Below are positions 39,196-43,845 of a stretch of DNA of 64,000 bases, one piece after another. Positions within the stretch are counted from its first letter, which is position 1; each line of letters begins with the position of its first letter. The DNA comes from Thozetella sp. PMI_491 (taxonomy: Eukaryota > Ascomycota > Sordariomycetes > Chaetosphaeriales > Chaetosphaeriaceae): assembly GCA_021432635.1 (NCBI GenBank), contig MU270026.1:124001-188000 (forward strand). The letters run 5' to 3'. A program made the translations under genes and the position numbers. The notes below the pieces were generated by a model, which saw only the letters and a list, made by a program, of their open reading frames with translations, made no database searches and was not told where the DNA came from.

Positions 39196-41173
39196 ATGGC
39201 GACCGCTGGCCCGCCGCCATCTGGTGCCATTGTACCCCCCCGGCACCCCGACAAGTCGGCTAGCTTTGATCTCAAAGGCGGGGATAACGGCGGGGGTAAA
39301 GTCGCGTGGTCTTCTTCCGAACACGTTGAAATCAAGACCGAGAAAGCCAGAGATGTGCTGACAGGCGCGACCGATCATGCTTCATTCGATGGTGGCATCT
39401 TGTACAAGGATGATGGGCAGCTGGTGCATCTTCCTGCGCCTACTAAAGACCCGGTAAGTGTCCCAGCCCGAAGGCGGCGGCTCCTGTCGCTAATTGAGTT
39501 CCTCCAGAGGGACCCGATGAATCTTCCCTTGCGTCGCAAGGTCCTCGGGTTAATATGTCTCTGTTTCTTTGGCGCCCTCGCTGCCTCCGCGGAGCTCATT
39601 TTGGGATCCATGCTTTCGGTCTTCGCGTTGGAGTATTCAGGTGTGGATCCTAAGATTATCAAGGTTCTCACGGAAACGCATGCTTTCCCTAAAGGCGTAG
39701 ATCCTCTCGTCTTTCTCTCCCAGCTTCCCAACGCCCCGCCTATCTGGCATACCTTCCTCCTCGGCTCCCTTCCACTGCTGGCGATGGGACTTTCCAATAT
39801 TTTTCTCATTCCACTGGCAATAGCCATCGGTCGCCGCCCCGTGATCATTATGTGCGGGCTGTGTGCTATCAGTGGCGCGGTGTGGGCGGGCCACAGCCAG
39901 TCGCTCAATTCCCACATTGGAGCTCGCTGCTTGCAGGGAATCGGCGCTGGCACCGTGGAGAGTCTTATTCCATTCATCATCCAGGATATTGTGTACGCTC
40001 ACCAGCGCAACACCGCCATCAGTGGTGTGTTTGCCGCCCAGGGCACCATCATCATTGCCCTCGGCATCGCGGCCCCGTACTTGATCATCGACCTCAGCTG
40101 GAGATGGGTCTACTTCGTCACCGCCGCCGGTGCTGGCTTCTTCCTGATCGGTGTCATCCTCTTCATGCCCGAAGTACGTCCTCCCGTGTTATTTACTGCC
40201 GTTTTCATCGAATATCGGAAGCATTTGAGCTCCTGTTCTTGAGACATGCTCTGGGTAGCTACATCAATATCCACTTTAGGAATTTACTAACACTCGGTCA
40301 TGGATAGACCAGGTGGCACCGCACCAAGGAGGAGCTTGAAGGGATTCCTCGACAGGAACCAGAGGATAGAGTCTATGCGCCACGCACCTGGAGGTATGAT
40401 CTGGCTCTTCAGCACGGCCCTCGCGAATGGCGGAAGGGCATCAATGCGTGCTATGATAGCCTCAGAACCTTCTTCTATCCCCACATATTCTTCGTTACCA
40501 TGCTGAACAGTGGTACGGTCGCATCAACCTTCGCTGCGTCCTTCACCATCACCCCGCATCTGGTGGGAGTTCCTTATAACTGGCCCTTCATGAGCCTTGG
40601 TTTTTGCTTGCTGTCGGTCCTCATCGCTGCTATCTTCGTAGCAGCCTTGACAGGATCCGCGGCGGACTGGGTGGCCAACTTCTTTGCGAAGAAGCGAGGC
40701 CGTAGGCTTCCAGAGAACCAGCTTATCAACTTGATCCTGCCGACAGCCTCCGGAATTGTCGGCACAATTCTATTCGGGCTAGGCGGATCGTATCCGGATG
40801 ACTATCCCTGGCCTGTCTTTCTCCTCGGCCTGGGAATGATGGCATTCGGGGCTCTGGGGACCAATACCATCGGGGCAGTATACGTACTCGAGTCCTATCC
40901 ACAGCTAGCAGGGTGAGCAACTTCCCATTCTTGACTTGAACGCTGCATACTAAGACGGACAGGCCCGCTCTTGTCAATATTGCTTCGTTTCGTTGCATTC
41001 TTGCCTTTATCCTCTCGTTCCAAGTTAGCACCTGGGTTGTCGATATGGGATACTTGAAGAGCATGCTCATCTATACCGGTGTGATAGGTGGATTCTTTCT
41101 CTTAATCCCGGTACTCTATATTTGGGGCCCGGGGTGGAGACGTCGCTGGCCGGGTCCAAACAGGCATAGCTAG
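39196..41173 (+). CDS. MFS transporter, multidrug (DHA)-like
   Basis: Three exons, 39196-40173, 40308-40912 and 40963-41173, read in frame to 597 aa. I start at 39196 (MATAGPPPSGAIVPPR); the frame is open to a Met at 39118. A hydrophilic N-terminal region of about 110 residues precedes the transmembrane core, which includes AIGRRPVIIMCGLCAISGAVW (the motif A region), GARCLQGIGAGTVESLIPF and the loop LFMPETRWHRTKEELEG. The second half ends in ALVNIASFRCILAFILSFQV and a short basic tail. It is a plasma-membrane proton-coupled transporter of the major facilitator superfamily, probably an exporter; substrate unknown. Intron 1 is the introner-like copy listed separately. Confidence 0.87.
40174..40307 (+). 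mobile_element. Introner-like element, copy A (intron 1 of the DHA-type MFS gene)
   Basis: This 134-nt intron aligns end to end with the 135-nt intron at 42403-42537 (opposite strand, different gene). By hand I count 23 mismatches and one 1-nt gap, about 82% identity. The first 12 nt GTACGTCCTCCC and the branch region GGAATTTACTAACACTC are identical, and both ends coincide exactly with splice sites. The host exons are not related at this position. No flanking target duplication is evident. Confidence 0.8.
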
Positions 41174-41936
41174 GACCTCGAATTCTGGACCGAAAGCCGC
41201 AGAGTAAGAAGCAGAAATAAGATAGGAGAATCTCAGTGCTCGCCCAAACTTTCCAACTGAGCAGTTAGTGGGCTCTCTCTCTCTATGCAGCTACTACTTT
41301 CAGCGAACCTCGTACGAGAAACACACAGCTACGTGGCTTCTGCAGCACGACCTGCCAGCAGGTCGTGTAGCACACTTGCGGAATGGTGCGGGAGCCGTGG
41401 GGCCAGCTCAAAGGGTTCAGAAGCACTCCTACCTACTCCTACATGGAACCACAAGCCAGCTTCCACTACACTGGTTGGAATTTGTGGTCGTGTTAACCGT
41501 GAACTCGGTTGGCAAGGCGTCATGGGAGAAGCAAGAGTCGTCGGGGCAATCCTTCTGCACGACTATGGACATTTCCGACTGCATGATTCGAGGGAACATG
41601 GCCCAAATGGAAGCTCCCAAGGGGAGCGTGAGCGAGGTACACCAGAGCAATTGAAGACGTTAAACGATGGGAGAGAGAAGCAACCGCCGGGAACAGGAAG
41701 TTGAGGAAAGAAGCTGAGAGTTTGGACAAGGACTTCCAAAGATAAACTGCGGAAAGTGGCCATCCCAATGAGAATAGGAAGCTTCGGCGTAGAATCAAAA
41801 AAAAATAAGAGAAAGAAGAAGTGGGAAAGGTTATTCCCAATCTTGGACGTTGTTACCAGCAGCATTTCTGCAGCAGCCTCTTATCTTACAAAAGCTTCAG
41901 ATTATTCTTCCATTATACTACTCAGGCTACTCGGTA
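41174..41936. other. Intergenic region between convergent transporter genes
   Basis: Contains the 3' ends of the DHA-type MFS gene (plus) and the sugar transporter gene (minus). Overlapping open frames at 41268-41865 look like chance shadows. A poly-A run at about 41798-41812 is seen. Confidence 0.5.
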
Positions 41937-43845
41937 TTATTCCGATCCTTTCTCCACGTCTTGCAGGTGCTTGGCGTTTTCGTTGGCGGTTATTTCGACC
42001 TTTTCATCTCCGTCGGAAACCTGCGATTTGAAGGGCTGATTCTTCCACTTTCTGGCAGGAATCCCATCTCGGAAGAAACCGTCGATCTCTTCCATAGTGC
42101 GCCCATTTACCTCCCCTACGCAGAAATAGACGTACGCCCAAGTGACAAAGCACAGCCCGGTGTACACGAATCCGGTCTTGGGCCCTAGATTGGCCGAGTA
42201 GTAGAGATATGGAAGAGTGAAGACAGTCACCCACACAGTGATCCAGAAGCATGCCACCGCGATAGCGTAGATCTTGTTACGATTGCGGCCGACGGCCATT
42301 TCGGAGGCCTTGAATTGTGCCCTAGTTAGTATCATTCTTTCAGGTATTAAAGCTTGGGAGTAACTCACAATCGCCCATCCTAGCGGCCCCCAGGCAAAGT
42401 TGCTGTCCATGGCTGAGTGTTAGTAAATTCCAAAAAGTGTATGCTTATGTAGCCACCCGGAGCATGTCCCAAGAGCAGGGGCTCAAACGCTCTCGATACT
42501 CGATGAAAAAAGCAACAAAGAACATGGGAGGACGTACAAAGCCACAATCTCAATGATGACAAAGCTGATGATGACCTTGCCCATTGTCTGTGATATATCT
42601 CCACCGGGGATGCCCAAGCAACCCACTACGAATATAGAGACGGTCATGATACCAGTGGTGACCATCAGCAATGGCCTTCTTGGCAACTTGTTGGCCAACA
42701 GGACCGCCGCCAACACCACGAACACCTGAATGATGAACACAATAAGCGTCATCAAGAAGGGATCCTCCAGTCCGATGGCCTCGGCGAAGACGGTTCCGAA
42801 GTAGTAAAACCACTGGATACCGTTGACTTGCTGCGCTATTAACGCACCGGCGCTGTAAATCACCTTGCGGCGCTCGATAGGGTCCGTGATCAGTTGCATC
42901 CAGCCGCTTTCGGCCTCGAGTTCAATCTCCTTGTTAATTCCAGCTTGGATGAGGTTCATATCTGGCTCAGGGTCGTAGGTCTTGTCATCCCGATGGAGAG
43001 CTCGAAGACTCTTGGTCGCTTTCTCCGTACGCCCCTTTCGAGCGAGCCAGCGGGGCGATTCCGGGACGAACCAGATCCCGAGAAGCACGAGGAAGGGGAA
43101 GAAGAGCTGAAATCCAATGGGAAATCGGTAGGCAAACGAGGTATCGATGTTGATCATCCCGCGGTTGATGCCAGCCGCAATGATTTGTGAGACAGACAGA
43201 GTAAGCTGCCAGCACATCAACAGCGGGCTACGCATGGACTCGGGAGCGATTTCCTACAGCATATATCAGTATCATTTGGGGACCAAGAAGGACAATCAAG
43301 TAGCTGCGTATACATACGCCCATGTATAATGGCGATGTAGCACTGAAATTGCCAACCCCGAAACCTCTTCGCTATGTTAGCTTAAGTATTTTCACCAATG
43401 CAATGCTGAATATGGGTGCAGCTTACAGAATGGCCCTTCCAGCAGTAATGAGACCTCGGTTGGAATCCGAGACCAGTTGAAGGATAACGCCAACGATGAT
43501 AGCAAAAGTACCGGTCATAAAAACCCCCTTACGTCCGAGGATATCATTTAAAGGTGCAGCGCTTAAAGACCCAACAAGCTCGCCGACATTAATCATCGAG
43601 GTCATGATCGAAAGGGTTGAGGGCGTGATGACGTAGCCGCCATCTTGAGTTTTATCGCCGAAGTGTCGAATGAATACATCTATGGTTCGATCAATACGTC
43701 TCAAATACCTTGCAGGGGATACTTGGGACGGCTTACCAAGGGTCGACACTCCATTGAAGTACACTCCATCGTATCCGTAGAGGCACGCACCCAGCGCGGC
43801 AAAGCCACAGAACAGCCAGATGTAAGGATACTGTATTTTCGCCAT
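41937..43845 (-). CDS. MFS sugar transporter (hexose/lactose permease type)
   Basis: Six exons, complement(41937-42308, 42369-42402, 42538-43253, 43318-43366, 43427-43679, 43737-43845), read in frame to 510 aa. I start at 43845 (MAKIQYPYIWLFCGFAALGA); the frame is open to 43935. Sugar-porter features are all present: YGYDGVYFNGVSTLD in TM1, NDILGRKGVFMTGTF (motif A), APESMRSPLLMCWQL, the PESPRWLARKGR motif, QQVNGIQWFYYFGT in TM7, GPLGWAIASEMAVGRNRNK and the closing EVNGRTMEEIDGFF (PETKG-like) with a hydrophilic tail. It is a proton-sugar symporter in the plasma membrane. It is divergent from the GH32 gene, and a Zn2Cys6 gene follows, which suggests a fructan or sucrose utilisation locus. Confidence 0.92.
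42403..42537 (-). mobile_element. Introner-like element, copy B (intron of the sugar transporter gene)
   Basis: This 135-nt intron splits the TM10 region (IIEIVA then FNFAWGPLGWAI). It matches copy A at 40174-40307 over its whole length, from donor GTACGTCCTCCC to acceptor CATGGACAG. About 18 of the 23 mismatches are transitions. The flanking exons of the two hosts show no homology, which argues against shared ancestral intron position. Confidence 0.8.

Follow-up and report, generated by a model that had tools for sequence, protein, structure and literature searches.

Fungal introner-like elements are one of the few systems in which recent gains of spliceosomal introns can be studied, and the way in which such introns arise is an open question. 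The elements of Capnodiales (Fulvia fulva, Dothistroma, Zymoseptoria), as described in the excerpted text of Collemare et al. (2015, PMC4457414), are similar GT-AG introns that lie in unrelated genes, form several families per genome and decay gradually. The sister (stw)introns of Hypoxylaceae are, in the excerpts of Fekete et al. (2021, PMC8469720), seamless and free of target-site duplications (TSDs) and phase bias. They are characterized there as stwintrons or stwintron derivatives that have inverted repeats of 45-55 nt, with no pattern in the bordering exons; the same excerpts attribute to van der Burgt et al. (2012) a preference for AG/GY sites. According to the excerpts of Gozashti et al. 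(2022, PMC9860276), ascomycete introner families lack TSDs and terminal inverted repeats (TIRs), and gene-enriched families show a tendency towards GC-rich insertion motifs. Here, a stretch of 64,000 nucleotides from Thozetella sp. PMI_491 (Sordariomycetes, Chaetosphaeriales; GenBank assembly GCA_021432635.1, contig MU270026.1, positions 124,001 to 188,000 of the forward strand), hereafter called the window, was analyzed. Two introns in neighboring transporter genes of the window are, judged from their sequences, members of a genome-wide introner-like family, in which a 134-nt spliceosomal intron is present in about 100 copies. New copies of this family probably entered new coding places by reverse splicing, and the places of entry carry a sharp one-sided insertion-site signature, which is new here.

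Intron 1 (positions 40174..40307 of the window, plus strand, 134 nt) interrupts an MFS gene in phase 0, between the E and T codons of MPE|TRW. Intron 2 (42403..42537, minus strand, 135 nt) is located in a sugar transporter gene in phase 2, inside the F codon of EIVAF|NFAW. Both have the ends GT..AG, and they score 138 and 121 bits, respectively, against the nhmmer profile of the family. Aligned from donor to acceptor they share 111 identities, with 23 mismatches and one gap, and the global score of 85 compares with a mean of -28 (sd 5.4, maximum -7) after one intron was shuffled 300 times. The likeness ends at the splice sites; the 30-nt flanks are unrelated, being identical at 6/30 and 8/30 positions. 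The coordinates, lengths, mismatch and gap counts, the common first 12 nt, the common branch region and the halt of the likeness at both splice sites had been given in an earlier note on this DNA, and realignment reproduced all of them. Branch-site-like TACTAAC motifs are found at 40285..40291 (plus strand) in intron 1 and at 42419..42425 (minus strand) in intron 2, in a region that is conserved family-wide. The host of intron 1 (39196..41173, plus strand; exons 39196-39453, 39508-40173, 40308-40912 and 40963-41173) encodes an MFS transporter of 579 amino acids, and that of intron 2 (41937..43845, minus strand; exons 43845-43737, 43679-43427, 43366-43318, 43253-42538, 42402-42369 and 42308-41937) a sugar transporter of 510 amino acids. 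Both spliced proteins match deposited Thozetella sp. PMI_491 proteins over their full length with 100% identity. Together with the continuity of the coding sequence, this suggests that both introns are spliced at these borders.

The earlier note regarded the two introns as copies of an introner-like element and proposed searching the genome with both. DNA searches of the genome returned at least 43 places for intron 1 and at least 41 for intron 2, and the reading as an introner-like element is borne out by about 100 copies whose borders lie at splice sites. Two other copies used as queries gave 41 places each. A core 22-mer occurred at 73 places with at most 3 mismatches (reversed control 1), a second core pattern at 64 (control 0), the 3' end pattern at 62 (control 1) and the 5' end pattern at 21 (control 0). 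A profile search of the fetched loci delimited 92 distinct copies on 51 contigs, which score 55 to 144 bits and are mostly full length, as 76 of them span all 134 model positions. Within the window, the 3' end pattern (at most 3 mismatches) was present in introns 1 and 2 only. Eleven places that were fetched later by means of the 3' pattern comprise seven of full or near full length and four that match 3' parts only; the latter (L121, L125, L129 and L130) may have decayed 5' parts or represent longer introns or mosaics. The three weakest of the 92 copies were omitted from the identity, conservation, covariation, tree and clade-fold analyses. Mean pairwise identity among the remaining 89 is 75.6% (highest 95.6%), and 30 of them have a neighbor at 90% or more. 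Their tree, based on 134 columns, contains several clades, but only 12 of 86 inner branches are starred. No second intron family was found among the other repeated segments in the 229 kb examined, where six matches of 31-54 nt were seen, three being exon repeats on contig C1. The core 22-mer had no hit in viral contigs, which were scanned for exact matches.

The two window introns are only about 2.1 kb apart, which would fit local copying or gene conversion between the neighboring genes, and a tree in which they are constrained as sisters is disfavored, not rejected (lnL 7.4 lower, p-AU 0.311). However, 13 copies are closer to intron 1 than intron 2 is, and three are closer to intron 2 than intron 1 is. 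For both introns the closest relatives are located on other contigs; the copy at C31:537443 is 91% identical to intron 1 and 84% identical to intron 2. Because each intron has closer relatives elsewhere, in a family whose 92 copies are spread over many contigs, local transfer between the window genes is not supported. The recent local transfer put forward in the earlier note is very improbable as an explanation.

The borders of the family coincide with spliceosomal GT..AG ends. GT and AG stand exactly at the model ends in 79 of the 92 copies, and in 90 of them GT is found within 4 nt and AG within 6 nt of these ends. A branch region of the CTAAC type is conserved as well. The surroundings are coding: in 54 of 72 copies 60 codons are fully open in the spliced sense flanks, as compared with 25/72 in antisense, 35/72 without splicing and 38/72 with the joint moved by one base. 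There is a clear sense bias, with coding flanks open in sense only in 32 copies, in both directions in 22, in antisense only in 3 and in neither in 15. The phase is uniform, since the best frames of the 65 copies that could be assigned fall into phases 0, 1 and 2 in 21, 21 and 23 cases (7 unassigned). Of 33 eligible hosts, 20 had the exons before and after the copy scanned apart against Pfam, the choice falling mainly on hosts whose open flanks were longest. One domain continues across the intron in nine of these hosts, and the profile positions on the two sides differ by 2 to 11: OPT (189|192), DUF7703 (183|193), AMP-binding (234|245), AA_permease (209|211), Tannase (375|380) and Sugar_tr (172|175, 400|402, 126|128 and 400|403). 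Therefore, splicing at the borders of the copy restores a protein domain in at least these nine hosts. A subtilase host harbors its domain on both sides, not adjacent, and 10 of the 20 have no two-sided match. The hosts are unrelated genes, among them those for OPT, AMP-binding, AA permease, tannase and sugar transporter proteins. Membrane transporters for sugars, amino acids and oligopeptides and of the MFS type account for 8 of the 20 scanned hosts, in addition to both window hosts. This number may reflect selection, because long open exons were the main criterion for including a host in the scan.

Where it could be followed, entry into the gene was seamless. In alignments of homologues of the two window proteins (39 rows, 38 of them other proteins), no row has a gap within 8 columns of junction 1 and a single row is gapped at junction 2, with a gap of 24 columns; apart from that row, no residue is gained or lost at the junctions. 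MFS paralogues are continuous across the position of intron 1, for example C42:201038-201217 (50% identity) and C3:252641-252829 (47%), and a sugar transporter paralogue (C7:179479-180120; 52% over a 215-residue query, no stop) is continuous across that of intron 2. These paralogues therefore have no intron there. For the two window introns, and for these only, absence in paralogues thus points to a new gain. A search for TSDs with nine flank shifts in 79 copies found none, as flank 4-mers matched in 0-2 of the 79 copies with 0.2-0.4 expected. A scan of all position pairs in the flanks gave a best diagonal with z 3.8 (3 nt, -8 vs +8 onward) among a few thousand tried, which is taken as chance.

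These results bear on the possibility that the family is a non-autonomous DNA transposon, i.e. an introner of the miniature inverted-repeat transposable element type whose ends provide the splice sites and whose movement depends on a transposase. DNA transposition is favored for most introner families outside ascomycetes in the excerpts of Gozashti et al. (PMC9860276), and the short A/T-containing site bias described below resembles a transposase target. However, besides the missing TSDs, a clear TIR is not evident by eye in the consensus sequences, which show an imperfect terminal match only, and clades A and D of the copy tree are not structured beyond expectation. The orientation bias (32 sense-only vs 3 antisense-only copies) speaks against a transposon as well, as does the confinement of the site signature to -4 to +1, on one side. 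The target of a transposase is usually symmetric. Thus, movement by a transposase appears unlikely. Helitron-like ends were considered and dropped by eye; the base before TC is the donor G in nearly all copies.

The insertion site was characterized in 77 copies, namely the 79 with exact ends minus two of three tandem copies on C1, leaving out the 13 with inexact ends, and was compared with sites that were matched in frame and drawn 5000 times from these copies' own flanks. In the joined exons the GC content at positions -4 to -1 is 0.42, 0.36, 0.36 and 0.34, drops to 0.22 at +1 and is about 0.5 thereafter. The GC content of the 50-nt flanks is 0.54, and the A/T-richness is confined to -4 to +1. 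Junctions with G or C on both sides (G/C|G/C) do not occur at all (0/77 vs 22.8 expected, sd 4.0, minimum 8). An A is found at +1 in 42 of the 77 copies, with 15.7 expected (maximum 29), whereas C at -1 is depleted (7 vs 21.1, minimum 9). G|A junctions are enriched (18 vs 4.2, maximum 12), as is ATG|A, which was counted 8 times with 0.08 expected (maximum 2). The bases on the two sides are coupled: A follows a G at -1 in 18 of 19 copies, but other bases in only 24 of 58 (Fisher p 3e-5), and G itself is not enriched at -1 (19/77). High- and low-scoring halves of the family are alike in this respect (+1 A in 21/38 and 21/39; G/C|G/C 0 and 0), which fits an origin of the signature at insertion. 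Among seven held-out full-length copies, which were fetched after the bias had been seen, four have A at +1 and one has ATG|A. It is quite possible, if somewhat short of probable, that this introner family has a real target specificity. Its entry into coding sequence would then be guided by a short motif that is one-sided, with A/T-richness from -4 to -1, an A at +1, ATG|A as a hot spot and hardly ever G/C|G/C, and that is read by the spliceosome or by the intron RNA in reverse splicing.

The main rival for this footprint is the survival of only well-spliced insertions. In that case insertion would be random, and an intron with a weak donor would splice well enough only at A/T junctions. The donors of the family are indeed unusual (GTCCGT, GTACGT, GTCAGT). 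Copies with a GTCTGT donor are mostly preceded by exon G (5/7 counted, four of these in ATG|A), as if donor strength were being compensated, or as if the donor sequence were linked to the target or to donor strength. Pairing of the donor with U1 should favor exon G at -1, whatever comes next. However, G is not enriched at this position and stands nearly always before A, as shown by the counts given above. In addition, ordinary intron candidates from the same 229 kb, which are rule-based and unverified, show no such avoidance, with G/C|G/C in 17/55 and A at +1 in 16%. A survival filter is therefore rather doubtful as the source of the signature.

Multiplication of one introner-like family into new coding places, with reverse splicing as the copying route, is thus the explanation that probably applies. 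An excised intron that is still held by the spliceosome would be reverse-spliced into an exposed coding-strand sequence, which might be single-stranded DNA in an R-loop or RNA that is later copied to DNA. The target would then be chosen through a few exon bases flanking the joint, those that occupy the catalytic centre, and pairing with a small nuclear RNA is possible. The exon bases that lie in the centre of the spliceosome are the last ones of the 5' exon and the first one of the 3' exon. Because the one-sided footprint covers the bases at this centre, it fits reverse splicing better than a transposase. Several points weigh against this reading. The site bias was discovered in these data and not predicted; since it was noticed in the data, the small held-out set is the only independent check, and one of its seven copies (L120) has a G|G junction. 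Copies were found mainly via core patterns, so that truncated copies may be under-counted. Finally, the predicted RNA structure does not appear to be family-wide, and most covariation measures lie near those of shuffles.

A predicted RNA structure is usually given for fungal introner-like elements. In the Thozetella family, the consensus folds gave z-scores of -1.61 (W), 0.02 (A), -2.66 (B), -1.61 (C) and -0.63 (D). The consensus of clade B is predicted to fold into a rod and that of clade A is not, and terminal pairing was seen in the consensus fold of clade B and more weakly in others. RNAalifold on 44 copies yielded 6 pairs with almost no covariation. Of six single-copy folds, that of L020 (clade B) had a z-score of -2.93, and the others ranged from -0.20 to 0.17. 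The z-scores of the elements average -0.70, in a test that is not independent because the copies are related. When the clade B rod was applied to the 89 copies, 83.4% of cells were paired compared with 83.0% after shuffling (5/500 shuffles reach this value). The covariation score was 0.151 vs 0.147 (60/500), and 16 pairs showed change on both sides vs 13.4 (94/500). Covariation being weak and mixed, a family-wide RNA structure is therefore not claimed. One measure stands out, as 41 cells were changed on both sides vs 25.0, a value reached by none of the 500 shuffles. This could speak for a conserved functional RNA that is hosted in introns and is not a mobile intron, and so could the finding that much of the element interior is as conserved as the splice sites. 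However, the 41 cells are no more than in slid structures (60 with slide -1 and 65 with slide +2), and 17 of them come from one pair. Moreover, identity spans the intron from donor to acceptor, the positions lie in unrelated genes, and the window, when searched against Rfam with the gathering threshold, gave no match. A hosted functional RNA is thus extremely improbable as the reason for the shared sequence.

Sugar transporter paralogues point to a possible parallel gain. The copies at C62:39484 and C60:49581 interrupt the same nucleotide of the same codon, in hosts that in their aligned part share 37% protein identity, 50% identity in the exons and 40% at third positions. Between the two introns the identity is 76.5%, but to copies elsewhere it is 90% and 89%. 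Forcing them as sisters costs 47.6 log units, with a p-AU of 0.0235 for a pair that was chosen after the distances had been seen. Based on the tree and the identities, the site therefore received a copy on two occasions, or a copy already present was exchanged for another. In a third paralogue, a 134-nt copy (L072; G000:C1:1958382, minus strand) lies one nucleotide further on. This copy is a GC-AG introner with a GCAAGT donor, and splicing still restores the sugar transporter, with the sequence WMCNF I|IGLVTPDM. If about 20 insertions are spread evenly over 1500 nt, two of them coincide exactly in 12% of draws, and three fall within 1 nt in 0.3%. The number of 20 is a guess based on five of the 20 hosts that were scanned, and the case was selected only once it had been seen. 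The coincidence was for these reasons downgraded as a proof of targeting; the triple case gives mild support to hot spots. The site rule, if true, would help to explain why three sugar transporter paralogues have copies within one nucleotide.

Several loci show unusual arrangements of copies. At L032 (G000:C1:1233190-1233693, minus strand) three copies follow one another, each at the corresponding position of a short exon that is repeated in tandem. The exon repeats of 41 nt are 93-98% identical and the introns 62-75%; the array may stem from an old tandem duplication or from repeated insertion at one site. L083 (G000:C37:98519-98787, minus strand) harbors two head-to-tail copies with CT alone between them, and the upstream exon also ends in CT, so that either an introner inserted beside another or a tandem duplication would account for the pair. 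In L097 (C4:221596) and L081 (C14:589986) the copy is followed by the same exon sequence, CTACTTTGGCTA; the best-frame phases differ, and the hosts are possibly related.

The literature on Thozetella introns or the Thozetella genome, on introners of Sordariomycetes and on fungal introner-like elements yielded no title on this family; supplements were not covered, and an earlier detection is possible. The Thozetella family adds a member from Chaetosphaeriales (Sordariomycetes) to the known systems, together with a strong statistical footprint of the insertion step. This footprint is testable in other introner families and can help to separate reverse splicing from transposition. If true, the site rule would record directly the way in which new spliceosomal introns enter genes. 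The following comparison extends as far as the excerpted sources describe the other systems. The Thozetella family resembles the Capnodiales introner-like elements in consisting of many similar GT-AG introns in unrelated genes and in their gradual decay. It differs from them in belonging to another fungal class, as the host is a member of the Sordariomycetes and not of the Dothideomycetes to which the earlier note had pointed, and in its number, with about 100 copies found vs hundreds. It further differs from the Capnodiales elements in that a stable structure does not appear to be family-wide. Its A/T-rich site with A at +1 is unlike the AG/GY preference attributed to van der Burgt et al., and also unlike the GC-rich motifs of the gene-enriched families, whereas the lack of TSDs is shared with the ascomycete families of the same survey by Gozashti et al. 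The Hypoxylaceae (stw)introns likewise are seamless, without TSDs and without phase bias. Hypoxylaceae also belong to the Sordariomycetes. In contrast to their (stw)introns, the Thozetella introns appear to be plain introns of about 134 nt; as a family they do not seem to be symmetrical, and their exon borders show a strong pattern.

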